Under the pieces are notes generated by a model. The model was given only the letters and a program-made list of their open reading frames with translations. It ran no database searches and had not been told where the DNA came from. Both the position numbers and the translations under genes were made by a program. This document shows positions 3,585 to 15,910 of a stretch of 64,000 nucleotides of DNA, piece after piece (the stretch's first letter is position 1; every line of letters starts with the position of its first letter). The DNA is from Methylomonas montana (GTDB lineage Bacteria; Pseudomonadota; Gammaproteobacteria; Methylococcales; Methylomonadaceae), in NCBI RefSeq assembly GCF_030490285.1, contig NZ_CP129884.1, positions 3,596,001 through 3,660,000 of the forward strand, read 5' to 3'.

Positions 3585-4195
3585 TGGACGAGCAATTCGA
3601 AATACTGAACAGCCGCACCGTCTACGCGGGTTTTTTCCGGTTGGAGCAATACACGCTAAAACACACTTTATTCAACGGCGGCTGGAGCTCGCCTCTCACC
3701 AGGGAATTGTTCCGGCGCGGCAATTGCGTGGCGGTATTGCTGTACGATCCGAATCGCGACGAAGTCGTCGTCATCGAACAATTCCGGGTCGGCGCGATCC
3801 TGCAACCGCAACGGGCCTGGTTACTGGAAATCGTCGCCGGCGCCATCGAGGAAGGCGAGACCGCCGAGGAAGTCGCTTATCGCGAAGCCCGCGAGGAAGC
3901 CGGCTGCGAAATTCTCGATCTTATCGAGATACAAAGCTTCTACACCACGCCCGGCGGTTCTTCTGAGTGGCTCACACTATTCTGCGGCCGGGTCGATAGC
4001 AGCAAAGTCGGCGGCATCCACGGCCTGAACGAGGAAGACGAAGACATCCGCGTCAATGCGGTCAAATTCGAGGTGGCATTTCAAATGCTGGAAGACGGCA
4101 AATTCGAATCCGGCATCCCCATCATCGCCATCCAATGGCTGTACATTCATCGCGGCAAGCTGCGCGAAAATTGGCTAAACAGGGCTACTACCTAA
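3581..4195 (+). CDS. nudF: Nudix hydrolase, ADP-ribose pyrophosphatase type
   Basis: A 204-residue NudF/TrgB-like Nudix protein expected to split ADP-ribose into AMP and ribose-5-phosphate. The Nudix box is intact: GAIEEGETAEEVAYREAREE followed by AGC (G-x5-E-x7-REUxEExGU). The downstream FYTTPGGSSEWLTLF stretch is typical of this subfamily. It starts on an ATG overlapping the previous stop (ATGATG; either ATG possible), so it is probably translationally coupled to the upstream dehydrogenase. Its stop overlaps the convergent lipoprotein gene by 8 bp. Confidence 0.9.
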   Translation: MMDEQFEILNSRTVYAGFFRLEQYTLKHTLFNGGWSSPLTRELFRRGNCVAVLLYDPNRDEVVVIEQFRVGAILQPQRAWLLEIVAGAIEEGETAEEVAYREAREEAGCEILDLIEIQSFYTTPGGSSEWLTLFCGRVDSSKVGGIHGLNEEDEDIRVNAVKFEVAFQMLEDGKFESGIPIIAIQWLYIHRGKLRENWLNRATT

Positions 4196-5504
4196 GCTGT
4201 AAGGAACCTGCCCTGTCCAGCCATTTAGTGGCTTTTTCGTTGAGCCAGGCTTGGGCGAATTGGTCTTTTTTGATCAGCATATCCAAAAACGCACTGGAAA
4301 CACTAGCCACGGCAGCGACCTGCTTGTAACCCAAATTGGGATCGTATCGCTGGGCTTTGTCGAACAAGCCACTGGCTGGTTCGCCAGTATTCAACGCTCG
4401 ACGACGGGCAGCGCCTGTGCCACCCGATTCAACTCCCCCCATGCTTCGCGCCTGCCGTCTCGAACCGCTCAGCCCAAAGCGTCCGCCCAATTCGTTACCC
4501 GCCAACAATCGGTGCCCGGCGCCGCGCAACAACAACAGATATTTACCGCCGGCCGGCGCGTGCTCCCAGACAGCCGTCCGCACCGCCGCCGAACTGATCG
4601 CATAAGGATCGTTGTCCTCGCTGCCGGTGATCACTAGCATCGGCAAATTCAATTTCTGATACCGGCTGCCGACATTACCCTCCGCCAGGTCCACCGACGG
4701 ACTCAGCACTATCGCCGCGATGGGCTTGAGTTCATCGCCAATCGGCAAACTGGCATCGAAACGCTCACCGGATACCGCCGCTACGGTTTGCGCGCCCAAA
4801 TCGTAACCGGCCAGAATCACCTTGGACACATCCGCTGCCGCATACGCTGGCTGATGCAAGCCGGCCCGAATTTTCAGCTGCCGATACGCCCAGAACAAAT
4901 GCGCCATCCGTTGTTTAAGATTCTCGGTCGCGAAATACTGATGTCCCACGTAACGTAGCTCGCTTTCGCGAGCCGTCCGCGAAGGCTGACGCGGTTTGTT
5001 GCCGAACCAACCGCCGCTCTCCGGCTCCCGACGCGGCTCCTCCATGTCATCCACCGGTTCCATGCCTTCTTCGTCTGGCATTTCCAGCGGTTCGTCGAAT
5101 CTGCGCTCCGCTTCCAACGCCTTCAGTGCCTGACTGATCGCCAAGGGCTGCATGCTGAATACCGCGTAACCGGCCTTGGCCCAGGCCTCCCGCCACAAGC
5201 GGCCGGCCCTGGCGTCCTCGCCCAAGCTGGGCAAATAAATAATCAAGGGATAGCTGCCCGGCGCGCTCGGCCCGGTGATTTCCACGTCCAACTCGGTGCC
5301 GTCGTGCGTCCAGATATCATGACTGCTATCTATCGCAAAACCGCGTGCCGGTTTATAGACACCGCTGTTCATCGCCTCTTCCAGTTTCTCCAGTTGGCTT
5401 TCCTGACTGGGCAAGGATGGCCGCGCGGAACAAGCGCTCAATAACGGCAGACAGCAGACTAACAGCAAGCGGAACGATAGGCGCGATGTAAAACATTGGG
5501 GCAT
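4188..5504 (-). CDS. Lipoprotein with alpha/beta-hydrolase fold
   Basis: A 438-residue protein with an N-terminal lipoprotein signal (hydrophobic LLLVCCLPLLSAC, lipobox L-S-A-C at about residue 25), so likely membrane anchored. The body resembles dienelactone-hydrolase/PAF-acetylhydrolase-like folds: YPLIIYLPSLGED (oxyanion strand), the nucleophile elbow LAGYDLGAQT, a late ITGSEDNDP acid loop and GAGHRLL for the catalytic His. The elbow carries Asp (residue 235) where serine is usual, so the enzyme may be inactive or use a dehalogenase-like Asp nucleophile. A low-complexity Glu/Pro/Arg insert (about residues 140-180) and a Gly/Ser/Arg-rich stretch near residue 355-385 are unusual. Substrate unknown. 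Confidence 0.75.
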   Translation of the reverse strand: MPQCFTSRLSFRLLLVCCLPLLSACSARPSLPSQESQLEKLEEAMNSGVYKPARGFAIDSSHDIWTHDGTELDVEITGPSAPGSYPLIIYLPSLGEDARAGRLWREAWAKAGYAVFSMQPLAISQALKALEAERRFDEPLEMPDEEGMEPVDDMEEPRREPESGGWFGNKPRQPSRTARESELRYVGHQYFATENLKQRMAHLFWAYRQLKIRAGLHQPAYAAADVSKVILAGYDLGAQTVAAVSGERFDASLPIGDELKPIAAIVLSPSVDLAEGNVGSRYQKLNLPMLVITGSEDNDPYAISSAAVRTAVWEHAPAGGKYLLLLRGAGHRLLAGNELGGRFGLSGSRRQARSMGGVESGGTGAARRRALNTGEPASGLFDKAQRYDPNLGYKQVAAVASVSSAFLDMLIKKDQFAQAWLNEKATKWLDRAGSLQLR

Positions 5505-5866
5505 GATTTTGCGACTCCGGCAACAAGATAAACTGGAAGGATAGACGATTTATAGTATCGCCCAGACACCGGCAAATCGCCGCTGATAAATTGTAAATTT
5601 GGGTAAACAAAAATAGAGCGGGGAACAGCATCTAAATAACTGCCGCTGCTCCCGCCAGACTAGGCAGCGCGGACCCTCAAAAAGCGGCCACCGCGCCGAC
5701 AAAACCATCGGCGCCTTGCCAAGCTGTTAAACGCCGACGCCCCGCAACACGCCCAGTGCCCGATCGAATTCGCGACCTGAAAAAGCGATTCCCATTGGTA
5801 TGAACGAATTCATTGGGGCTCGGCAGGAGGACGGGGAATGCAGGCTAGCGCCCACTCGCCCTGCAC
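5505..5866. other. Intergenic stretch left of the CRISPR relics
   Basis: No supported gene. The first part is the probable promoter region of the lipoprotein gene. The part nearest 5866 is continuous with the decayed cas4/cas1 relic but diverges from the family after VQGEWA, so the relic's junction lies near 5848. No CRISPR-type repeat was seen here. Confidence 0.6.
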
Positions 5867-6001
5867 CTATGCCAGGTACGCCAGACGTGGGCAATACTGA
5901 TATTCGTTGATCATCCGCGCCGGTAATAACGGCATATCGCCAGACAGCTCCGAAAACGGTAGCGGTAGTTCTAGCTGAATGGGCGGGCGTTCGTCATTCA
6001 T
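5867..6001 (-). pseudogene. 5' relic of a cas4/cas1 fusion gene (type I-G/I-U-like)
   Basis: A 44-codon frame beginning at 6001. After an ELPLPFSEL leader comes MPLLPARMINEYQYCPRLAY and then LA, an amber stop, and VQGEWA in the same frame. The block P-L-L-P-A-R-M-x-N-E-x-x-Y-C-P-R-L plus W/xVQGEWA is the hallmark start of Cas4 domains, especially the Cas4-Cas1 fusions of type I-G (old I-U) systems. The amber codon replaces a residue that is usually Trp (one-base TGG to TAG). Similarity stops after GEWA, so only the first ~50 codons survive. It faces away from the antitoxin gene at 6048. Family assignment is from memory of the motif. Confidence 0.72.
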
Positions 6002-6047
6002 TTTGTAATACAATCCGTATTCATCATTGCGTTACTCGGAGCATGCC

Positions 6048-6356
6048 ATGCCAGCCATCAGCCTACGTCTACCCGACGATGTCGAAGCCCATTTGAAAGC
6101 CGAAGCCCAATTGGAAGGTAAAAGCCAATCGGAAATCGCCCGGCTGGCGATTACCGAATACCTGGCCCGCCGCGAGCGCGAGCGGTTTATGGCGGAAATG
6201 GTGGAAGCGGCACGCGCCTTGGCCAACGATCCGCAAGCCAGGGCGGAAGCGCTACAAATTGCCGAAGATTTCGACGCGGTGGACGATGGTCTTGACCGCT
6301 TGATTGCCGAAGAGCGCGCCGCCGACATAAACCCCGATGAAAAGTGGTGGGAATGA
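6048..6356 (+). CDS. Ribbon-helix-helix antitoxin (CopG/MazE-like)
   Basis: A 102-residue acidic protein. Residues 1-45 (MPAISLRLPDDVEAHLKAEA then KSQSEIARLAITEYLARR) form a ribbon-helix-helix DNA-binding domain. The Glu/Ala-rich tail ends ADINPDEKWWE, typical of antitoxins that wrap a MazF-type toxin. The ATG at 6048 follows a CGGAG ribosome site; an ATG seven codons earlier is less likely. The stop TGA overlaps the toxin ATG at 6356 (ATGA-type coupling). It presumably neutralises the toxin and represses its own promoter. Since the toxin is broken, it may now be an orphan antitoxin. Confidence 0.85.
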   Translation: MPAISLRLPDDVEAHLKAEAQLEGKSQSEIARLAITEYLARRERERFMAEMVEAARALANDPQARAEALQIAEDFDAVDDGLDRLIAEERAADINPDEKWWE

Positions 6357-6979
6357 TGCGACGCGGCGAAGTGTGGACCGCCAATCTTAACCCCAACATC
6401 GGGGAGTCGCTATTTTTGCGAAAGCTTGTTTTGGGCATCCCAGCCCAATCAAGCGGCAAAAATTACGCGACCGCTTATGCCTCCGGCGGCCCCGATTCGT
6501 CCGCGTCACCTCGTTTCGACCCAACAAGGGGTCGAAACATTGGCTCTCGCATGACTTGACGCCGTTTCGCGATGCCTTGCAGGTTTTCTCCGCTTCACTA
6601 CGAAAACCCGCCCGGCGCTACGGCTATCGCGGTCTAAAAATCTTCACTTCGCTATCGCTCCGTTTCCAAGATTTTCAGCGAAAGCGGCGAGATTGGCAAG
6701 ACCAGACCGGTATTGATTTTGCAGGACGACGCGATGATAGGCAGCGGCTTGCCCACCATTTTGGTGGCACCGCTGACCAGTCAATTTCGGCCAATCCTGG
6801 CACCGCTGCGAGTTCTTGTGACTCCGCGCGGCCAACTGAAAAACCTCAGCTACGTGATGATCGAACACGTCCGCGCCCTTGACCGCTCCCGCTTCGGTGA
6901 AGGTCCACTCGCCACCGTCACCGCCGAAGAAATGGCGGCGGTGGAGAAGAGTTTGAGAGGGGTTTTGGGGTTGTGGTGA
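6356..6979 (+). pseudogene. MazF/PemK-type toxin gene interrupted by a 285-bp insertion
   Basis: The gene starts MRRGEVWTANLNPNIGE and resumes at 6692 as IGKTRPVLILQDD, continuing through APLTSQFRPILAPLRVLVTP and SYVMIEHVRALDR to a stop at 6979. Joined, these give an ordinary ~112-residue MazF/PemK endoribonuclease. Between GAG at 6404-6406 and GAG at 6689-6691 lies 285 bp of unrelated DNA. It keeps the frame (a multiple of three) but brings an in-frame TGA at 6557-6559. As read, the product is a 67-residue stub without the catalytic fold, so the toxin should be dead unless the insert is removed. Confidence 0.85.
6407..6691. mobile_element. Small insertion inside the toxin gene
   Basis: A 285-bp noncoding insert flanked by GAG on both sides (possible 3-bp target duplication). 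The 8-mer GCGAAAGC occurs close to both ends in direct orientation. Inside is a perfect 10-bp hairpin, GTTTCGACCC at 6513-6522 and GGGTCGAAAC at 6529-6538. No transposase and no clear terminal inverted repeats, so it is either a non-autonomous element or a recombined fragment. Confidence 0.5.
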
Positions 6980-7003
6980 GGCAACGGTTGAATGCATCCC
7001 CAG

Positions 7004-7202
7004 TTACCCTTTGGCGCTCAATGGTACAAACAAACCCAAACCAAAATGGCAGCCAAAGCAATGCCAGCGGGCCGGTAACCGGTTCGGCGAACGTCAGTTG
7101 CCAGAACGAACCGCGAGTATCCGGCTGAACTAGACCTCTTTTGCTTCGAAAGCGGTGAAAGTCAATCGGACGGAGTTCTCGGCCGTGAAGTTTAATGGTC
7201 GG
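7004..7202 (-). pseudogene. 3' relic of a csb2-like cas gene (type I-G/I-U Cas5-Cas6)
   Basis: Read leftward from 7202 the frame gives RPIDFHRFRSKRGLVQPDTR, then GSFWQLTFAEPVTGPLAL. Restoring two bases after this point (near 7060) continues as GFGCHFGLGLFVPLSAKG and a stop at 7004. The ending F-x-EPV-x-GPLALG-x-x-CHFGLGLF is the C-terminal RAMP signature of the Csb2 (GSU0054) family of type I-G/I-U systems, as I recall it. The relic lacks most of the gene, carries a frameshift and is closed by a stop just upstream (TAA at 7203-7205), 16 bp from the first type II repeat. In type I-G operons csb2 is followed by cas4/cas1, the order preserved here. Confidence 0.7.
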
Positions 7203-7220
7203 TTACAACACACCTGTATT

Positions 7221-7850
7221 GTTGTGATTTGGCGGTAGACCTTAGTCGGTTACACTGCTGCTTGTTGCCCACCACCCCAGTTAGGTGTTGTGATTTGGCG
7301 GTAGACCTTAGTCGGTTACACTAAACGGAAAATACGTTGCCACAGTTTGCGGTTGTGATTTGGCGGTAGACCTTAGTCGGTTACACTGCGCGGTGGCGGG
7401 TGCGTTAACGGGCGGTGGTTGTGATTTGGCGGTAGACCTTAGTCGGTTACACTTTGCCGAAAACAGTTGTCGCAAACCTTTACAGTTGTGATTTGGCGGT
7501 AGACCTTAGTCGGTTACACTCTAAATCGTCAATCATCCTTCGCGTGGAACGTTGTGATTTGGCGGTAGACCTTAGTCGGTTACACTGGCGGCGATGGTTG
7601 TACGGGTGCGCCCCCTGTTGTGATTTGGCGGTAGACCTTAGTCGGTTACACTGGTAGGTCTAGCCTTGATGCCCTATGCAAAGTTGTGATTTGGCGGTAG
7701 ACCTTAGTCGGTTACACTTTGAAGGTTCCCGGTTGTTTGTGAAGGTAAGTTGTGATTTGGCGGTAGACCTTAGTCGGTTACACTCGGCTAACGCGGCGGA
7801 ATGATGTGCTCATTGTTGTGATTTGGCGGTAGACCTTAGTCGGTTACACT
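7221..7850 (+). CRISPR. Type II-C CRISPR array, 10 identical repeats, 9 spacers
   Basis: Ten identical 36-nt repeats beginning GTTGTGATTTGGCGG and ending TTAGTCGGTTACACT start at 7221, 7287, 7352, 7418, 7485, 7551, 7617, 7683, 7749 and 7815. Spacers are 30, 29, 30, 31, 30, 30, 30, 30 and 30 nt, all different. The plus strand is the crRNA strand, because the tracrRNA anti-repeat at 12257-12280 is its exact reverse complement over 24 nt and has a terminator on the plus strand. The array therefore runs toward cas2, convergent with the cas operon, as in Neisseria-type II-C loci. Even the last repeat is undegenerated. There is almost no leader: csb2 relic sequence ends 18 bp before repeat 1. Confidence 0.98.
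7229..7256 (+). promoter_or_regulatory. Candidate promoter inside each CRISPR repeat
   Basis: Within repeat 1, TTGGCG (7229-7234) and TACACT (7251-7256, the last six bases of the repeat) are spaced 16 bp apart and resemble -35 and -10 boxes. Transcription would start inside the following spacer. Neisseria and Campylobacter II-C arrays are known to have repeat-embedded promoters with the -10 at the repeat end; here the same layout recurs in all ten repeats. Confidence 0.5.
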
Positions 7851-7878
7851 ACCCGCCGGGTAATTCATTGAAACACCT

Positions 7879-7920
7879 GAACAATTGGTTGCTTTTAATT
7901 TAAAAAAGCGCCAATTGTTC
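7879..7920. terminator. Bidirectional terminator between CRISPR array and cas2
   Basis: Inverted repeat GAACAATTGG (7879-7888) / CCAATTGTTC (7911-7920) with an inner GCTTTT/AAAAGC stem around an AT loop. The right arm overlaps the last codons of cas2 (stop at 7900-7902). Placed between convergent transcripts, it could end both the cas operon and the crRNA transcript. Confidence 0.65.
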
Positions 7921-8205
7921 GGGCGTTCTTTCGATCGGTTGCGGTTTCGGACCATAAAACACCTCGATTTTGCCGAATTGCTTGTCGGTGATTTTGACGA
8001 TACGTACTTCCCCATCCGCCGGCAATTTGGCTTTGACCCGCTTGACGTGGACTTCGGCGTTTTCGTCGCTAGCGCAATGGCGCATGTAGACCGAATACTG
8101 CATCATCGTATAGCCGTCGTCCAACAGAAACCCGCGAAAGTCGGTATAGCGCTTACGGTCTTCGTGTGTTTCGGTTGGCAGGTCGAAAAGTACTATGACC
8201 CACAT
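7900..8205 (-). CDS. cas2: Cas2 spacer-acquisition endoribonuclease
   Basis: A 101-residue Cas2, starting MWVIVLFDLPTETHEDRKRY. The ferredoxin-like fold signature is visible: first beta strand with catalytic-type Asp (VLFDLP), then RGFLLDDGYTMMQYSVYMR. Cas2 forms the Cas1-Cas2 integrase that inserts new spacers. An ATG at 8229 overlaps the cas1 stop, but a GGAGG ribosome site sits 10 nt before the ATG at 8205, so the shorter form is preferred. It is the last gene of the cas9-cas1-cas2 operon. Confidence 0.95.
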   Translation of the reverse strand: MWVIVLFDLPTETHEDRKRYTDFRGFLLDDGYTMMQYSVYMRHCASDENAEVHVKRVKAKLPADGEVRIVKITDKQFGKIEVFYGPKPQPIERTPEQLALF

Positions 8206-8225
8206 GCTGTCCAATCCTCCGAAAT

Positions 8226-9125
8226 TCATGGTTCCAGCACCGTCCAGCGCGGGTATTCCAATTTGGCCGATCTATCGGCATAGGCCCGCTTGAAATCGGC
8301 CAGCAAATAGTGGCAGGCCACCATCAGCGGCAACGTTTGCTTTCCAAAAATCACCGGCTCGCTCAACAAGTTCAGTAGCGCCACTTTACTGCGCTTGTCG
8401 ATAGCCAAGTCGGCCGATTCCTCGGCCAATCGATACACTTGGTAATCGATCCAGGGGCGAAACGGTTCCATCAGATCGTCGGCCAGACAAAGGCCGTCGT
8501 ATTGGCTGCTGTGATTGACGCCCAAGGCCGGATGCAAGCCGCTGGCAACTATGGCACGGGCCACCAGCGCTCGCATGATCGCGTAACCGTAATTGAGCAA
8601 ACTGTTGATACCGGCGGCTTCGCTATCTCGTCTGAATTGATCGCCGAACAGCAAGCGCCAGTATTTTTGCGCGGCTTGCGCTTCCAGATTGTCACCATCT
8701 CCGCTCTTGACTTGCGCGGCCAGTCGCTCCAACGCAACGGTGTTCTTGTTTAAGCGCTTCAAGACGATAGCTTGCGCCGCGATTTTCTGACGAACAATCT
8801 GCTGCCATAAGCGTTTGCGAGTGGGCAGATTCACCGCAATCTGCTGGCGAATGATTTTGCTGTGCAGGCTGTTAGCCTCGGTCAGCGGCAGTAACACCGA
8901 ATAGGGCAAATGCCGCTGGTCGCACAACACTACTGCCACATTGTTTTGCTGGCAAGCCAGCAGTGCGGCTTGGGTCGCGACAATTGCCGGGTTCTGTAAA
9001 ATCAGCACGCCCAGGTCTTCGATCGGAATTTGCCCAACCGCTTCGCCTTTTTGCTCGATGATTAATTGTTTATGAGCCAGATGCAGATATGACGGCTCGC
9101 TAACGTCAACAATGCGTTTAATCAT
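8226..9125 (-). CDS. cas1: Cas1 integrase, type II-C
   Basis: A 299-residue Cas1 of the type II lineage (MIKRIVDVSEPSYLHLAHKQ start). The alpha-helical domain shows the metal-ligand pattern: Glu in DNLEAQAAQKYWRLLFG, His in GVNHSSQYDGL and Asp in LADDLMEPFRPWID. It catalyses integration of protospacers at the array. It overlaps cas9 by 4 bp (ATGA) and reaches to the possible upstream cas2 start, so the three genes are translationally coupled. Length and motifs are normal. No csn2 or intact cas4 is present, as expected for subtype II-C. Confidence 0.97.
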   Translation of the reverse strand: MIKRIVDVSEPSYLHLAHKQLIIEQKGEAVGQIPIEDLGVLILQNPAIVATQAALLACQQNNVAVVLCDQRHLPYSVLLPLTEANSLHSKIIRQQIAVNLPTRKRLWQQIVRQKIAAQAIVLKRLNKNTVALERLAAQVKSGDGDNLEAQAAQKYWRLLFGDQFRRDSEAAGINSLLNYGYAIMRALVARAIVASGLHPALGVNHSSQYDGLCLADDLMEPFRPWIDYQVYRLAEESADLAIDKRSKVALLNLLSEPVIFGKQTLPLMVACHYLLADFKRAYADRSAKLEYPRWTVLEP

Positions 9126-12100
9126 AAAATCGGTTTTCCGATAGCATTGATCTCGTACTTTGTTAAACCAACATTAAGCAATGCATCGATGGAAGATAGA
9201 CGATCTGGAAGAGTTTCTGTGTCATCAATCAAAGTAGCGGCAGTGTGTATCCGAAGTTTTAAGCGTTTGTTTGCCGCATCAAGTTTTTGAATTCGATAAA
9301 AACGTGTTAATCCATTTTCCTGAATGCTGACGATATCATTAATGTGTAACGCCATAACAAATTCGTTCCCTTCGCCATGATCAATTTTGATAATCGGTTG
9401 ACGCTCCATGCCTATGCCTTTGACGCGCCGACTGGCTTCCATCATGGTCACGAATTCGCCGAAGTACTTGCCGCTGACCTTGTCCTTTAAGATTTCGACA
9501 TGGTGAAGGTTGCCATAAGCCAGCCACTTGAAAACGTCGCCTTGGCGATTGCGAACACCGAATTTGCTTTTTTGCAGTTTCTCCAGCGTAGTTTTGGATT
9601 GCAAAATTCTGACCCGCTTGATCGGCGTTTTGCCGTCCTTATGCAACACCGTATTGCCCGGTGCGAACGCTTCCTTGGGTTTTCCGCCGAATCGTGCTAA
9701 ATGTCGTTCCACCAAGGCCTTGACGGTCGGATCGAGTATTTTGTCGGTTTGGGTAAAGCCACCATCCAGTGTTTTACGATGCACATTGCCAATACCCTCG
9801 ATAAACCCGGCACCGGTGACTTCGTGCAATTCGCCGTTTAGTTTGCGTTGCGGCGCGTGGCTGACGATCATGTTAGCCAATGCGTGGTCTAAATCGTCCC
9901 GCAACGTCGACCAGCAGGGATCGACGTGAATATCACGCGGGTCCAATTGAGATTTTCGGCGTTCCAAGTCCTTGGCGTTATCCACCAGCGCTTTGTAAAA
10001 CCGCCTGTCCACGCAAGCGACTACTGTGGCGTCGATAGCATGGTGGCGATGGTCGGTGCGGTCCTTTTCGGCGCTATCGCCCACCAAGTTATTGAGTCCC
10101 CATTGGTGGCGCACCCAGGCGGTCGTGATGCCTTTGCTGACCGATACGTCCGCCCCCAGTTGTTTTAAATAATCCAGCGCGACCCGGCTAATGTAGCGGG
10201 TATCGTTCAGTTGGCTATTGATGAAGTCCCGCTGTTGAACCTCGGCGGCCGTCATGAAAAAGCGGTTACGCTTGGCGATCATGCGTTTGTCCCAGCGGCT
10301 GATGGCCTGGGCGATTTGATTCCAGCGTTCTGAATCGCCGCCGAAGGCGTCAATCGGCGTGCGTTGTCCCTTGGCTCGGTTTTCGGCGGTGAAGCACACC
10401 ACCTTGTTCATGTACGAATCGTCCAGCGATTCGCTGTAAGGCAAAATGTGGTCGATTTCGACTTCTGGCCCGAACAATGTCGCCAGGCTGATACTCCTTC
10501 CGGAATAGGCGCAGCTATGGTTTTGATCTTTCCATAGTCGGTATTTGATCTTGTCGTTGCGGCTGGCTTTATGGCTGAGGGCCAAATGCGGGTTTTGCCC
10601 GCGTATTTCGGCGAATTTGGTTTCGGCTTCTTCGTTGGCCTTGGTATTGGCTTTTTGTTGTTTCTCGTGTTCGGCGTAGCGTTTGGTATTCATCTCCAAA
10701 TCGCGGGCCATTTCCACGCGGATTGCGTCGGGTTTGCCGTATTCGGCGATGACGGCATTCACCACTCGACGTAATTCATGTAGCGCTTTTTGGACGATCG
10801 GATTGTTGACTTCCGGCGGTTGCGGCAGTTTTTTAAAGGGCTTCAGTACGTCGATTTCGTAGCCGTAGCCGGCGCTGACGCGTGCCTCGGAAAATAGCTG
10901 GCCTTGTTCGAGATACGGCAGTAATTTGCGGATCGCTTTACTGGACAGGTTGCTATGTCCTGGCTCGAATTCCAGCAAACACAGTTTTACCGCAATCCCG
11001 GCGTCGAATCCCCAATGCTGCATCAGGCGTTTTTTCAAGATCGATTTTTTCTGAATAGTCAATAAATCCTCGACCAGGGCTTGTCGCTGCTCCGACGCAA
11101 AACCATCCCACGCTGACGACAACACCGTACGAATTTTGCACGCCGTGGTATTGCCTTTGAGTTTTTTATTGCCTCTTTCCAGATTGAATTCGGTACGTTT
11201 GTCTAAACCAAGGGTTTTGCGGATTTTGGCGAAGCTAGGCGCGGCTTCATGCTCAAACAGCGCGACCAGCTTCTGGCGATCCGCTTCGCTTAAGGGTAAC
11301 CATTGCTCGGAATGCCGTTCGAAATAGCGCAGATTGTTGATGTCTTGCAGATAGCGGAAACGTTGGCATTCCAGCCGGGCGATGTTGGCCCGGTTGTTTT
11401 TTGGTTCCAACGAACATTTACCGATGCGGTCCGCCCGCAGTTTTAAAGGCCGCTGGTAAAAAATGATGTGTTCGATTTGTTCTTTGACGCTGTCGGTTAA
11501 TACAAGATGATGCCTTTGCTGGCCTTGCCAGATTAATTCCAGTTCTTCGCGGTACATAGCGCGATCAGTGCGTAAATGGCCGCCGTCATGGCTACGGTTG
11601 CGTTGGCATTGATGGCGGTCGAAGCCTGCAAGATATTCGCCTAAGGTCCGGCAGCCCGCATTCACAATCGCGGCACGGAGTTCGGCAATGTCGTGTTTGA
11701 AGGCCGACTCTTCCTTGGCGCGTTCGTCGTCGGCATCGTCAGTGTTTTCCAGGGCATCCAGTTCCGCCAATACATCCGGATCGTCCAGCATGTCACCGAG
11801 CAGAGTCTTTCGACTACTCAAAAAACCGCGCCGTTGCACCAAATGCAATAACGCCCGGCCTAGTTCATGGGCAGTCAGCGCGTGATCCAAGCCTTTGGCG
11901 CGCAACGGATACGGGTCGCCAAGTGAATTCAGAACGAGTTCGGGATGAGGATGATTTTGCAGTTCGGCAGGCAGTAAGTCTAATTTGATTAGATAATTTT
12001 GCAGCCGTTGTTTGCGCCTTGTGCGCCGCTGTAATATCCGCCTGGCGAGACGCGCGCGACGACGTTTCGCGTTTTTGGGCGTGGGCGTTTTTTCTTCCAC

Positions 12101-12226
12101 CGCCTTGATAAAAATCCGACAACCCAAATCGATGATCCTGCTCGGCTTGCCATCGTTTTCCTCCAATAACGCCCAACCGATGGAATTGCTGCCCAAATCC
12201 AGGCCCAAAACTTTCTTGTTCTGCAT
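9122..12226 (-). CDS. cas9: Cas9 endonuclease, type II-C
   Basis: A 1034-residue compact Cas9. RuvC-I is LGLDLGSNSIGW with Asp10. The arginine-rich bridge helix follows (KRRRARLARRILQRRTRRK, about residues 55-75). RuvC-II is IRVEMARDLE with Glu505, HNH is VEIDHILPYSES with Asp592-His593 and a downstream Asn (SYMNKV), and RuvC-III is HHAIDATVVACVD with Asp732. All nuclease residues are present, so it should cleave both strands. A C-terminal PAM-interacting region of about 250 residues follows. Length is close to Neisseria and Campylobacter II-C proteins. It is first in the operon; its start lies 28 bp from the divergent tracrRNA start. Confidence 0.98.
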   Translation of the reverse strand: MQNKKVLGLDLGSNSIGWALLEENDGKPSRIIDLGCRIFIKAVEEKTPTPKNAKRRRARLARRILQRRTRRKQRLQNYLIKLDLLPAELQNHPHPELVLNSLGDPYPLRAKGLDHALTAHELGRALLHLVQRRGFLSSRKTLLGDMLDDPDVLAELDALENTDDADDERAKEESAFKHDIAELRAAIVNAGCRTLGEYLAGFDRHQCQRNRSHDGGHLRTDRAMYREELELIWQGQQRHHLVLTDSVKEQIEHIIFYQRPLKLRADRIGKCSLEPKNNRANIARLECQRFRYLQDINNLRYFERHSEQWLPLSEADRQKLVALFEHEAAPSFAKIRKTLGLDKRTEFNLERGNKKLKGNTTACKIRTVLSSAWDGFASEQRQALVEDLLTIQKKSILKKRLMQHWGFDAGIAVKLCLLEFEPGHSNLSSKAIRKLLPYLEQGQLFSEARVSAGYGYEIDVLKPFKKLPQPPEVNNPIVQKALHELRRVVNAVIAEYGKPDAIRVEMARDLEMNTKRYAEHEKQQKANTKANEEAETKFAEIRGQNPHLALSHKASRNDKIKYRLWKDQNHSCAYSGRSISLATLFGPEVEIDHILPYSESLDDSYMNKVVCFTAENRAKGQRTPIDAFGGDSERWNQIAQAISRWDKRMIAKRNRFFMTAAEVQQRDFINSQLNDTRYISRVALDYLKQLGADVSVSKGITTAWVRHQWGLNNLVGDSAEKDRTDHRHHAIDATVVACVDRRFYKALVDNAKDLERRKSQLDPRDIHVDPCWSTLRDDLDHALANMIVSHAPQRKLNGELHEVTGAGFIEGIGNVHRKTLDGGFTQTDKILDPTVKALVERHLARFGGKPKEAFAPGNTVLHKDGKTPIKRVRILQSKTTLEKLQKSKFGVRNRQGDVFKWLAYGNLHHVEILKDKVSGKYFGEFVTMMEASRRVKGIGMERQPIIKIDHGEGNEFVMALHINDIVSIQENGLTRFYRIQKLDAANKRLKLRIHTAATLIDDTETLPDRLSSIDALLNVGLTKYEINAIGKPIL

Positions 12227-12247
12227 TGTTGCTCCATAGTGTAGAAT
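12219..12247 (+). promoter_or_regulatory. Candidate tracrRNA promoter
   Basis: TTCTGC (12219-12224) and TAGAAT (12242-12247) with a 17-bp spacer precede the anti-repeat. The -35 box overlaps the cas9 start codon on the other strand. The -10 lies in a short inverted repeat GTAGA/TCTAC (12241-12256). Confidence 0.4.
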
Positions 12248-12253
12248 CCAGTC

Positions 12254-12373
12254 TACAGTGTAACCGACTAAGGTCTACCGATTAACCTTTTCATACCAAT
12301 GGAATGTTTTTCCGTAGGCAACGCTTTCAGGCGACCGGAGCCCTCGCAAGGTAAAACCTAAGGGGGCTTTTTT
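12254..12373 (+). ncRNA. tracrRNA of the type II-C system
   Basis: The anti-repeat at 12257-12280 is perfectly complementary to the last 24 nt of the CRISPR repeat. After a small unpaired AU, UAAC can pair with the repeat's 5' GUUG, giving the usual bulged repeat:anti-repeat duplex. Next come a nexus-like hairpin CAUACC-AAU-GGAAUG (12292-12306), a linker and a terminator hairpin with a run of six T. About 120 nt in total. It diverges from cas9, the standard Neisseria-like position. The exact 5' end is inferred from the candidate -10. Confidence 0.88.
12340..12373 (+). terminator. Rho-independent terminator of tracrRNA
   Basis: GCCCTC (12340-12345) pairs with the GGGGGC end (12362-12367), enclosing an inner AGGT/ACCT stem, followed by TTTTTT at 12368-12373. 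Confidence 0.85.
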
Positions 12374-12902
12374 ATGCCCATCGTTTTTACATCAATTTCG
12401 AGCCGCACTCACTCATTTGCGTTCCGGAAATCGGCGTACGCCGGTGTTTCAGCAAGTTGTGAAGTTTGACGATTTTGTCGATGTGCTGCATGGCTGAAAT
12501 CTCTGTCCCTGATGATTTGTGGCTAACAGCGTATACCAGCATCCCTAACATGAGAAGCTGGCCGAAAATAAAAAACATCCGCTTCGATACGCCATAACTA
12601 CCCGTTGAAGAATGAGTTGTATAGTCATCGCACTTCAAATTTCGGTTTTTTGAATCTCCTCACCCTAACCCTCTCCAGCAGGAGAGGGGATTGCGGCGCC
12701 GAAATTTGATGCGCAAAAGGTATAAAAACATCGTTTCCGCCGGCATCGACCGCAGGCCGGAACAAGACTTTTGTGAAAATAACCCGTTGGCGCGGCATGC
12801 AAATTATGTCAACCTTTCCACCGCTTATTCGAGATTGAAAACGACGCCAGGAATTGTGTATTCCGTCCGCCAACCCCTATTTTTGGAAAAACCCTTAACA
12901 CC
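12374..12902. other. Intergenic stretch right of the CRISPR locus
   Basis: No confident gene. A minus-strand frame at 12387-12638 could encode 83 residues with one hydrophobic segment (FFIFGQLLMLGMLVYAV), but it has no family resemblance I know. A REP-like hairpin lies at 12669-12688. The end of the stretch (12880-12902) leads into the ABC ATPase pseudogene. No cas remnants were recognised on this side. Confidence 0.5.
12669..12688. repeat. REP-like palindrome (CCCTCTCC/GGAGAGGG)
   Basis: Perfect 8-bp inverted repeat with loop AGCA, embedded in CACCCTAACCCTCTCC, a sequence style common in dispersed intergenic repeats of proteobacteria. Copy number elsewhere cannot be judged from the window. 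Confidence 0.6.
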
Positions 12903-13408
12903 ATGAGTTCTTCGCCTCTTGTTCTTGAAGCCCGCCAATTAGTCGTCAAATACAAACAGCACCGCGCCATCGACGCCTTGAATCTCGGCGTACCCAGGGG
13001 CTGCGTCTACGCCTTGCTGGGCGGCAACGGTGCCGGCAAGTCCAGCACCATCAGCACCTTTTTAACCTTTAACCGCCCGACTAGCGGCCAAGTGCTGATC
13101 GAAGGCGAGTCGCCGCACGACCACCCCGATCTGGTGCGGGCGAAAAATCGCCTATCTGCCGGAGAACGTCGCGCTGTACGAGTTGATGAGCGGCCTGGAG
13201 AACCTGAACTTTTTTTTGCACGCTGGCCGGCATTCATATCGGCCGCGAGCAAGCCGGACAATTGTTGAGCGATAGCGGTCTGCAAGCCGACGCCCACGCC
13301 AAGCGCGTCGCCACCTATTCCAAGGGCAACTGTTCAACCCTTTGATGCATGAATTGGGCATGCTGGATACTGTTAGTGGGTTTGCGCCGCCGCTTCGGCA
13401 AAATATAA
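12903..13408 (+). pseudogene. Decayed ABC transporter ATPase (NosF-like) fused to a remnant of a membrane-protein end
   Basis: The start MSSSPLVLEARQLVVKYKQH and the Walker A segment LLGGNGAGKSSTIS are intact. A one-base expansion of an A run (around 13145) shifts the frame away from KIAYLPENVALYELMSGLEN. A second expansion in a T run (around 13212) shifts it before CTLAGIHIGREQAGQLLSDS. After ATYSKG, where MRQKV and the Walker B region should follow, the sequence jumps to a short hydrophobic tail WILLVGLRRRFGKI ending at 13408. The signature, Walker B and H-loop are deleted. It probably derives from a NosF-type ATPase of an ABC-2 exporter. Confidence 0.82.
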
Positions 13409-13681
13409 GGTAGCGAGGACTATCGCGTGATGCCCCCCGGCGTCAGAATCGTTGTCGATCAACCCAAGACGATACTTCACCCATCAGTTGAACGCAGTCC
13501 GCACCGATAGCCCACGCTTGCCGCCGATGGCTCAGGATAACGGAACGGACCGATTTGATCCAAACCGCCGGTTTAGCTAAAGCCACTTGCTAATCTGGCG
13601 CCTTTTGGAATTGCCAGCCACAATCCCAGCCAAATGTTTTATCATTGGGCGGAGATATGCCCAGCAACGACAAGAATAACA

Positions 13682-15910
13682 ATGAATAGCACTCCGCAGC
13701 CCGCCAGCAACCCCCTGATTTCCCCGGTTATTTTATTCGCCGCCACCCTGTTCATCAGCGCGACGCTGATGTTCGTACTGCAGCCGATGTTCGGCAAGAT
13801 TCTGCTGCCGCTGCTGGGCGGCACGCCGGCAGTATGGAATACCTGCATGGTGTTTTACCAAACCTTGTTGTTTCTGGGTTATCTCTACGCGCACTGGCTG
13901 AGTTCGCGATTGGGCAGCCAGCGGCAGATTCAGATTCATACCGCGTTGCTGATTTTCAGCGCGATTGCGCTGCCGGTGGCACTGCCACCCGATTCGGCAC
14001 CGCCCACCAGCGGCGATCCGACCTTGTGGCTGGTGTGGACCTTATTCCTGGCCATCGGCCTGCCCTTTTTCGTGGTCTCCACCACCGCGCCGCTGCTGCA
14101 AAAATGGTTTTCCCTTAGCGGTCATCATAGTAGCGACGATCCTTACTATTTATATGCCGCCAGCAACGCCGGCAGCCTGTTGGCTTTGTTGAGCTATCCA
14201 TTTCTGATCGAGCCGAATCTGGGTCTGGTCAACCAAAGACTGATCTGGAGCGGCGGCTATATCGGTTTGTGCGCGTTGATTCTAGTTTGTGCGGTCAGCT
14301 TCTGGCGCAGTCAAGCCGACAAAGAAGACGACGCTGTGTTAATGGATGCCGGCGTTGAACCGCCTTCAACGCTGCTGCAATTGCGCTGGCTGGCACTGGC
14401 TTTCGTGCCCTCCAGCTTGTTGCTGGGTTTGACGCAATTCATCAGCACCGACATAGCCGCCGTGCCCTTGCTGTGGATCGTGCCGCTGACGCTGTATTTG
14501 TTGACCTTTATCCTGGTGTTCAGCAACTGGGCCGACCGCATCCGGCCGTGGATGCTGGCCGCGCAGCCCGCGGTATTGACGGTATTTATCGCGTATTCCT
14601 TCATCAATCCCGCCACCCTACCCTACTGGCTGGATTTGATTCTGCATTTAATGGCCTTCTTCCTGGCGGTGATGGTTTGCCACGGCGAATTGGCGAAAAG
14701 TCGGCCGCATCCGCAATATCTGACCCGCTTTTATCTGGTGATGTCGTTTGCCGGCATGCTGGGCGGCTTGTTCAATACCTTCGTCGCGCCGTTTATCTTT
14801 AATGCGGTGTACGAATATCCGATCATGATCGTCGCCGCTTTGCTGCTGCGTCCGGGCTTTTTCAACGGCAAATGGTTTTTGCAGCCGATTTTTCCGATGT
14901 TGGTGCTAATTACTGGCCTGACGATTTATTTCAGCACCGACCAGCTATTCGATTATCTGGACTTGATCGGCGGTGCACTGATTCTACTGGCAGGCTTGAG
15001 TTATTCCCTGCGGCATAGCCCCATCGGCCTGGGTGTGCTGACCGGGGTGATTTTATTATTCACGCTGGGCTTGCATAGCATGGCCTCCAATACCTTGTAT
15101 CAAGAACGCACTTTCTTCGGCGTCATGTCGGTGCGCGATACCGTGATCCCTGACGAAAACCAGCGGCCGGAGAAAGTTCACGAGTTATACCATGGCACCA
15201 CCAAACATGGCGCTCAGCGCTTGACGCCGGCCAACGTCACCACGCCTTTAACCTATTACAGCCGCCCTGGCCCCATCGGCCAGCTGTTTGCGGAGTTCGA
15301 CAACGAAAATCGGCACTGGCATATCGGTGCGGTAGGCTTGGGCGCCGGCGCCTTGGCTTGCTACAACCAGGAAGGACAGCATTGGAAGTTCTACGAAATC
15401 GACCCGTTAGTCGTAGAAGTGGCGCAGAATCCGGCTTGGTTTAGCTATCTGAGCCGCTGCAACAAACAAGCGGAAATGATCGTCGGCGACGCGCGTTTGT
15501 CGCTGCTCAAGGAAGCCGACGCCAGCTTCGATTTGTTGATCATGGACGCCTTCAGCTCGGATGCGGTGCCCACGCATTTGCTGACGCGCGAGGCATTGCA
15601 GCTATACTTCAGCAAGCTGAAAGACAACGGTTTGCTGGCCTTCCACATCACCAACCGCCACCTGGCCCTGAAAAAAGTGCTGGCCGACCATGTCAATCAA
15701 CTGCATTTGGCGGCCTTGTTGCAGGAATTTAAACCGGAAACCGATGTCCCTCTGGTGGTCGCCACCGACTGGGTGGTCATCGCTAAGCAGCCCGAGCGCT
15801 TACAACGGCTACAACAAAGCCGGCTCGGGCATTGGCAGAAACTGCCGCTGACGTTTGGTCTGCAACCTTGGACCGACGACTTCACTCATATTATTGGCAT
15901 TTGGAAATAG
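13682..15910 (+). CDS. Polytopic membrane protein fused to a spermidine-synthase-like methyltransferase domain
   Basis: A 742-residue protein. The first ~480 residues are a hydrophobic region with ten or more membrane segments, including the family opening ATLFISATLMFVLQPMFGKI and VVSTTAPLLQKWF. The last ~270 residues form a Rossmann-type spermidine-synthase-like domain: GAVGLGAGALACY (cofactor loop), FYEIDPLVVEVAQ, IVGDARLSLL and FDLLIMDAFSSDAVPTHLLT. No polyamine-specific residues can be claimed; such fusions are widespread and uncharacterised. The ATG at 13682 is preferred over 13634 because it starts right before the first hydrophobic segment. The stop is 8 bp before lpxD. Confidence 0.85.
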   Translation: MNSTPQPASNPLISPVILFAATLFISATLMFVLQPMFGKILLPLLGGTPAVWNTCMVFYQTLLFLGYLYAHWLSSRLGSQRQIQIHTALLIFSAIALPVALPPDSAPPTSGDPTLWLVWTLFLAIGLPFFVVSTTAPLLQKWFSLSGHHSSDDPYYLYAASNAGSLLALLSYPFLIEPNLGLVNQRLIWSGGYIGLCALILVCAVSFWRSQADKEDDAVLMDAGVEPPSTLLQLRWLALAFVPSSLLLGLTQFISTDIAAVPLLWIVPLTLYLLTFILVFSNWADRIRPWMLAAQPAVLTVFIAYSFINPATLPYWLDLILHLMAFFLAVMVCHGELAKSRPHPQYLTRFYLVMSFAGMLGGLFNTFVAPFIFNAVYEYPIMIVAALLLRPGFFNGKWFLQPIFPMLVLITGLTIYFSTDQLFDYLDLIGGALILLAGLSYSLRHSPIGLGVLTGVILLFTLGLHSMASNTLYQERTFFGVMSVRDTVIPDENQRPEKVHELYHGTTKHGAQRLTPANVTTPLTYYSRPGPIGQLFAEFDNENRHWHIGAVGLGAGALACYNQEGQHWKFYEIDPLVVEVAQNPAWFSYLSRCNKQAEMIVGDARLSLLKEADASFDLLIMDAFSSDAVPTHLLTREALQLYFSKLKDNGLLAFHITNRHLALKKVLADHVNQLHLAALLQEFKPETDVPLVVATDWVVIAKQPERLQRLQQSRLGHWQKLPLTFGLQPWTDDFTHIIGIWK

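Follow-up and report, generated by a model that had tools for sequence, protein, structure and literature searches.

The exchange of one CRISPR-Cas system (clustered regularly interspaced short palindromic repeats and their associated genes) for another at a fixed chromosomal place has been described before. In the accessible text of the reports, a II-C/I-E replacement in situ is given for the thiD–pknB locus of Corynebacterium diphtheriae, a kind of event that its authors regard as perhaps common (Puigbo et al. 2017, PMC5379612), a III-B system is replaced by III-D with retention of cas6 in Clostridium botulinum Okra (PMC5379612), and the CS1 site of Dolosigranulum pigrum holds either a II-A or a I-E system (PMC8547433). 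Here we analyse a 64-kb window of the Methylomonas montana genome (G000, a 4.63-Mb single contig; NZ_CP129884.1, positions 3,596,001 to 3,660,000), where a type II-C CRISPR-Cas system stands between broken genes of a type I-G locus. The first-pass annotation of this DNA had taken such frozen swaps to be rare, which these published cases contradict. The kind of event is already known; this case differs in pairing I-G with II-C and in keeping broken genes at each of its two borders.

The window is like the C. diphtheriae locus in that one place holds different CRISPR types across strains, with II-C as one partner. That case was inferred from gene content and trees, with no fragments of the displaced system described in the accessible text, whereas here I-G is the displaced system and both junction genes are visible. 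As in the accessible account of C. botulinum, the effectors are exchanged and an old edge gene stays, but cas6 is intact there and the edge genes are broken in the window. For the D. pigrum CS1 site, unlike the window, the accessible text describes neither relics nor breakpoints. Our literature search, whose coverage left out most subscription journals, found no published swap with both junction genes visible. Because both broken border genes remain, the size, the borders and the approximate age of this swap are measurable.

Type I-G relics on both sides of a II-C unit

The II-C unit very probably replaced a type I-G locus in situ and left relics of it at both borders. Broken I-G locus genes lie on both sides of II-C genes that appear intact, and between the same flanking genes four relatives carry a I-G system, one carries I-E (across two contigs) and two carry none. 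The features, in window coordinates, are:

4188–5504, minus strand: lipoprotein gene (so named in the first-pass annotation), left conserved flank; match in 32 of 37 genus genomes
5809–5841, plus strand: degenerate copy of a single type I-G CRISPR repeat, in contact with the cas4/1 relic; by alignment to the G209 repeat
5840–6001, minus strand: relic of the cas4/cas1 fusion gene (cas4/1), N-terminal residues 2–55; by profile and tblastn
6048–6356, plus strand: RHH-type antitoxin gene, open frame; PF01402, complete by tblastn at 6048–6353
6344–6979, plus strand: PemK/MazF-like toxin gene, interrupted; PF02452, E 3.4e-17 on its second part
6399–6680, strand not assigned: 282-bp repeated element inside the toxin gene; by repeat copies in the genome
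7026–7202, minus strand: csb2 relic, C-terminal residues 440–491; by profile, tblastn and DNA alignment
7198–7207, plus strand: left junction, 10 nt forming part of the II-C repeat, the first 5–6 common to the relatives' csb2
7221–7850, plus strand: II-C CRISPR array, ten identical 36-nt repeats with spacers of ~30 nt; by repeat finding
7900–8229, minus strand: cas2; TIGR01573, E 1e-20
8226–9125, minus strand: cas1 of the type II (NMENI) kind; TIGR03639, E 4e-83
9122–12226, minus strand: cas9, 1034 aa; TIGR01865, E 4e-203
12256–12373, plus strand: probable trans-activating CRISPR RNA (tracrRNA), with anti-repeat, stem-loops, G+C-rich stem and six T; by anti-repeat and fold
12411–12491, minus strand: WYL regulator gene relic, N-terminal residues 1–27; tblastn 78%, E 7e-8
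13634–15910, plus strand: spermidine-synthase-like gene (so named in the first-pass annotation), right conserved flank; match in 37 of 37 genus genomes

The cas4/1 and csb2 relics, in I-G gene order to the left of the II-C system, had been recognised in the first-pass annotation, and comparison with the proteins of intact relatives bears this out (tblastn, 83% identity each; E 5e-22 for cas4/1, which has one in-frame stop, and E 8e-23 for csb2, which has a 2-nt gap). By profile, the cas4/1 relic matches NF049935 (cas4g_cas1g, E 4.4e-9) and the csb2 relic matches TIGR02165 weakly (profile positions 446–478, E 0.06); a Pfam search returned no match for either fragment. Profiles alone are too weak for the csb2 fragment, and its identity is settled by the sequences of intact relatives, three of which (G201, G209 and G210) are 87–92% identical to it in DNA.

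Beyond the earlier annotation, we found the I-G repeat relic, the toxin–antitoxin (TA) pair between the two gene relics, and the WYL relic on the right. The repeat relic is identical to the G209 repeat in 28 of 34 aligned columns, with one gap; its alignment score is 21, against 13 for the runner-up elsewhere in the window (3197 segments), and it matches the G209 array by blastn (E 8e-4). In the rest of the genome, outside the window, one 20-mer matches the I-G repeat with 3 mismatches. The cas4/1 and csb2 genes are the I-G cas genes present in the window (tblastn), both as fragments only, which falls short of a functional type I-G system. A relocation of the I-G genes to another part of the genome found no support: Csb2 and Csx17 had no match there, control queries likewise matched nowhere, and cas3 and cas7 were searched in the window only. 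The same search method did find Csb2 in 12 of the 37 genus genomes.

The search for the two flank genes covered all 37 genus genomes, and the locus was read in 12 of the 36 relatives (in G107 and G038 it is split across two contigs). As had been predicted, an intact I-G operon occupies the same chromosomal place, from the lipoprotein to the synthase-like gene, in 4 of the 37: G201 (M. fluvii EbB), G210 (Methylomonas sp. LW13), G205 and G209. The order in G201, G209 and G210 is I-G array, cas2, cas4/1, TA pair, csb2, cas7g, cas8g1/Csx17, cas3g and WYL gene (cas genes of G201 named by NCBIfam and its WYL gene by Pfam, those of G209 and G210 by tblastn; cas2 confirmed in G201 and G209, and a 98-aa frame at the equivalent place in G205 and G210). 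G205 has the same edges with different effectors, namely Cas8g2, a Csb2 of 711 aa, and cas7g and cas3g genes that have diverged. Type I-E genes adjoin the WYL gene on one contig of G038, and an array that looks I-E-like lies by a histidine-kinase gene on the other. CRISPR-free strains had also been expected: the kinase gene (left) and P450 gene (right) are adjacent in G177 and G199, with no CRISPR gene seen between them, and in G213, G094 and G135 the lipoprotein gene, broken in G135, is the immediate neighbour of the synthase-like gene. G126 carries type I restriction-modification genes, an N-terminal cas4/1 relic and the TA pair; G107 carries the TA pair and a 116-bp remnant resembling the start of hsdR of G126. 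Neither of the two findings that the first-pass annotation had named as refuting the swap arose at this place: relatives do carry I-G here. More distant members, G061 and G147 among them, have it elsewhere. In a single-gene tree of 30 of the 37 genomes, chosen because a locus accompanied their spermidine-synthase match, the window's lineage falls outside a nine-genome clade (support 100/99) that comprises the four I-G genomes and G038, G107, G126, G177 and G199.

The fragments in the window are collinear with the intact I-G loci at the orthologous place. Blastn against G201 yields collinear blocks at 5849–6398, 6681–7203 and 12415–12553, the latter two of which flank the I-G effector genes in G201; G209 and G210 give similar blocks. 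Over the four relatives, the nucleotide alignments span 135–553 bp at 77–94% identity.

On the right, DNA homology in the WYL region, including its upstream part, covers 12415–12573. The relic is 82–88% identical in DNA to five relatives at this locus, with I-G or I-E neighbours, and has itself no match in 12 II-C loci (both by blastn). From this comparison, we read the WYL relic as the resident locus's own gene and not as II-C cargo. Its arrival with the II-C unit, an idea that came from the G093 locus, is rejected in view of the DNA identity.

The II-C system is compact, as had been described, and its array begins 18 bp past the csb2 relic. Its cas9, cas1 and cas2 genes lie back to back; no cas4 or other gene was recognised between array and anti-repeat, nor was csn2 recognised in the operon, for which no specific profile was run. 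The GLDLG, EIDH and HHAIDA motifs (RuvC/HNH), whose residues we take to be catalytic, are kept when Cas9 is aligned with the solved Cas9 9ar4. The anti-repeat (12256–12280) is exact over 25 nt, and the divergent tracrRNA candidate has a fold z of −2.2 and a G+C-rich stem ahead of a T-tract (12368–12373) that a simple terminator scan left unflagged; Rfam returned no match for the candidate. Based on gene content, the type II Cas1, the tracrRNA candidate with its anti-repeat and the Cas9 motifs, we assign the system to type II-C, a class named from gene content. Judging by the intactness of the genes, CRISPR immunity at this locus would now rely on Cas9 and the new array. Spacers compared with phages gave 14 records at chance level only (E at least 2 among the matches listed).

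Borders, source and age of the exchange

Homology to other II-C loci ends at the edges of the unit on both sides, and the borders are therefore tight. On the right, it extends to 12371–12391 in 11 of 12 other family loci, the exception being G093 (broken cas9), where it ends at 11729; on the left, the array alignments start mostly from 7220–7221. The left border lies at ~7203–7221 (about 18 bp) and the right at ~12372–12415 (24–43 bp). At the left junction, the window reads GTCGGTTACA, which is 10 nt of the II-C repeat, and the csb2 of relatives reads GTCGGT (G201, G210) or GTCGGC (G209). A comparable 10-nt match to the repeat turned up in 66 of the 63,182 segments of 30 nt compared across the window. 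This coincidence suggests that the left end may have been joined where csb2 and the II-C repeat share a few nucleotides, and on balance we favour a double-ended recombination of the incoming DNA, with little or no homology, as the mechanism.

In the course of events that we envisage, the ancestor would have carried a I-G locus of array, cas2, cas4/1, TA pair, csb2, cas7, cas8, cas3 and WYL gene. A II-C unit from another lineage, reaching from the array to the tracrRNA terminator, would then have replaced the stretch from about codon 440 of csb2 to about codon 27 of the WYL gene, an extent that follows from the synteny and the junctions. In all, II-C stands in place of the greater part of csb2 and of the WYL gene and the whole of cas7, cas8 and cas3, which amounts to nearly the whole I-G effector operon. 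The relics show a separate deletion, which fused a repeat of the I-G array to about codon 55 of cas4/1 and removed cas2 and most of cas4/1. The toxin gene is disrupted by the 282-bp element.

The simplest reading of the distribution of Cas9 is that the II-C unit was imported from outside the genus. Cas9 is present in 1 of the 37 genus genomes, the window's own, and in 27 of 201 sampled family genomes including it; the nearest other copy, in another genus, has 72% identity. Its single occurrence in the genus and the distance of that nearest family copy argue for import. No plasmid donor was found, as 56 plasmid Cas9 records all had less than 60% identity (at most ~33% among the matches listed), and a Cas9 pattern scan of genome contigs returned no relative, though the protein search did recover family members.

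Substitutions in the relics fall mostly at the third codon position, as they do between intact copies, so most of the divergence arose while the genes still worked. The csb2 relic differs from G210 at 0, 1 and 12 sites at codon positions 1 to 3 (out of 58, 59 and 58 compared, with 2 gap columns besides), from G209 at 0, 3 and 17, and from G201 at 3, 3 and 17; the intact csb2 genes of G201 and G210 show a similar pattern (2, 0 and 11 of 68 at each position), and the cas4/1 relic differs from G205 at 2, 2 and 11 of 45 per position. By this pattern, the loss of I-G is recent relative to the split from the sequenced relatives.

One exchange or several

The first-pass annotation had proposed that a II-C cassette recombined into csb2 and that the upstream I-G genes were lost. 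Synteny and the junctions uphold the replacement, while its completion in a single step is an interpretation of the borders. Several observations count against the replacement as we have reconstructed it. The composite occurs in one genome only, with no intermediate strain seen, and no donor was found near enough to reveal the extent of the incoming DNA. In a few loci the II-C alignment already begins before the first repeat (at 7204 in G085 and at 7214–7216 in G031 and G095), the 13 nt ahead of the first full repeat are below normal spacer size, and the 10-nt match at the junction was noticed post hoc, with only 5–6 nt of it common to csb2. Most of the relatives read have a histidine-kinase gene on the left and a P450 gene on the right of the locus; neither is matched at this place in the window. 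Finally, the locus is a mosaic: an alignment of the csb2 relic is obtained with G201, G209 and G210 but not with G205, whereas the antitoxin and the toxin part are 94–95% identical to G205. More than one exchange has therefore occurred here.

A course of several steps, to which we give somewhat less than an even chance, would have the II-C unit arrive in or beside the I-G locus and coexist with it until the I-G effectors were deleted, or would have I-G lost first and II-C enter the scar. The junction of array and cas4/1 shows that separate deletions do occur here, and the sites of G107, G126, G177 and G199 are eroded or CRISPR-free. The two types can also adjoin: at L258 884–4132, from an uncultured Pseudomonadales bin, a truncated Cas9 lies ~130 bp from the csb2 3′ end of a I-G operon (a 335-aa frame, profile positions 2–322 of 1070, E 4e-61, and thus the N-terminal third). 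Csb2 and Cas9 matches were, however, found together in 0 of the 37 genus genomes, and the borders of the replaced stretch match the II-C unit on both sides, for which a single exchange is simpler.

The mosaic identity along the locus and the restriction of the composite to one genome would also be expected if it had formed in another Methylomonas and reached this strain as a finished unit, already containing the relics, through homologous exchange at the flanks. We consider this improbable, as no other genome among the 37 has Cas9 and the proposal merely relocates the event. It is very unlikely that the II-C system is the older resident and that I-G pieces were added around it. The L258 locus offers such a reverse picture, with its Cas9 N-terminal fragment by a I-G operon, but in the genus Cas9 is found in 1 of 37 genomes and I-G Csb2 in 12, and the window's fragments, broken and following the I-G gene order to the left and right, surround a II-C unit that is whole. 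Chance similarity of the fragments, to which the Csb2 profile value of E 0.06 and the lack of a Pfam match might point, has a negligible probability and is refuted by the alignments of 135–553 bp at 77–94% to four relatives at the orthologous place.

The toxin–antitoxin pair and parallel loci in Methylomonas

Having set out these alternatives, we return to replacement in situ and to the genes that remain at its edges. The antitoxin, 91% identical to the copy of G107, occupies an equivalent position in intact I-G loci (tblastn), and the toxin aligns by tblastn in two pieces, 6344–6412 and 6677–6976 (plus strand), around the 282-bp element. This element has 9 full-length copies in the genome, including the one in the window, at 95–100% identity, and may be a miniature inverted-repeat transposable element (MITE). 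A 243-bp stretch at 90% identity to it is present in G126. The antitoxin and the second part of the toxin are 95 and 94% identical to G205, versus 88% for the nearby synthase gene, which points to a likely recent exchange of 6048–6979 between species.

A tblastn search of 79 named I-G loci matched the Methylomonas pair in 14; it lies there on the opposite strand, on the csb2 side of cas4/1 and upstream of it. This count is a minimum, because toxins of other families would escape the search. Some of the 79 loci end before the gene. The count includes the relic locus of M. koyamae SM2, and in several of the loci further genes lie between csb2 and the pair. The arrangement of TA genes inside I-G is already in print: a figure legend in PMC9638904 places two TA systems between csb2 and cas4/1 of Thioalkalivibrio sulfidiphilus. 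As far as this source is accessible, T. sulfidiphilus is like Methylomonas in this placement, and unlike the window in that its locus is intact and has five genes between csb2 and cas4/1. The pair outlasts I-G in G107 and G126, and the antitoxin outlasts it in the window.

A parallel replacement stands at another chromosomal place in M. koyamae SM2 (G011, L166/L250, NZ_PPPU01000018.1; L166 6029–12962). There, cas4/1 is cut at residue 305, and the remaining residues 1–305 lie directly against an exact I-G repeat. The TA pair and csb2 residues 330–504 come next, and the stretch from there to WYL residues 1–159 is filled by a protein of 850 aa, one of 151 aa and a HigA-type antitoxin. The 850-aa protein has weak family matches only and looks, by eye, like an ATPase with C-terminal repeats; the frame beside HigA that resembles its toxin had no family match. 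SM2 is thus like the window in its cut cas4/1 by a I-G repeat, its TA pair, its csb2 C-terminus and its WYL N-terminus, and unlike it in carrying an ATPase-like/HigA cassette rather than II-C.

Three I-G effector sets lie between the same WYL and TA/cas4-1 edges within one genus (L144, L138 and L161), and in the genomes SURF-1 (G141) and SURF-2 (G165) the WYL and TA edges enclose a third I-G arrangement that includes a Cas3-extension protein. Between both edges, we count three I-G effector sets, the II-C unit of the window and the ATPase-like/HigA cassette of SM2; beside one edge only are I-E, at the WYL edge, and restriction-modification genes, at the other. As a tentative proposal, the Methylomonas I-G locus could be a fixed frame with an exchangeable slot, in which array, cas2, cas4/1 and TA pair form one edge and the WYL gene the other, and the stretch between them is repeatedly swapped; the TA pair may hold the frame in place, and the WYL regulator may act for any effector set that comes to lie next to it. 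The SM2 parallel and the variety of systems at the same place in near relatives make Methylomonas suitable for direct tests of how, and how fast, CRISPR systems replace one another; the same set suits tests of the roles of the embedded TA pair and the WYL regulator.

The loci found with a WYL regulator as neighbour include I-G, I-E and type II systems. In G093, from another genus of the family, a 47% identical WYL gene lies directly upstream of the broken cas9 (L012 358–4167). Within the window, 12903–13268 encodes the N-terminus of an ABC-transporter (ATP-binding cassette) ATPase (PF00005) that looks frameshifted downstream and is probably another decayed gene by the locus.

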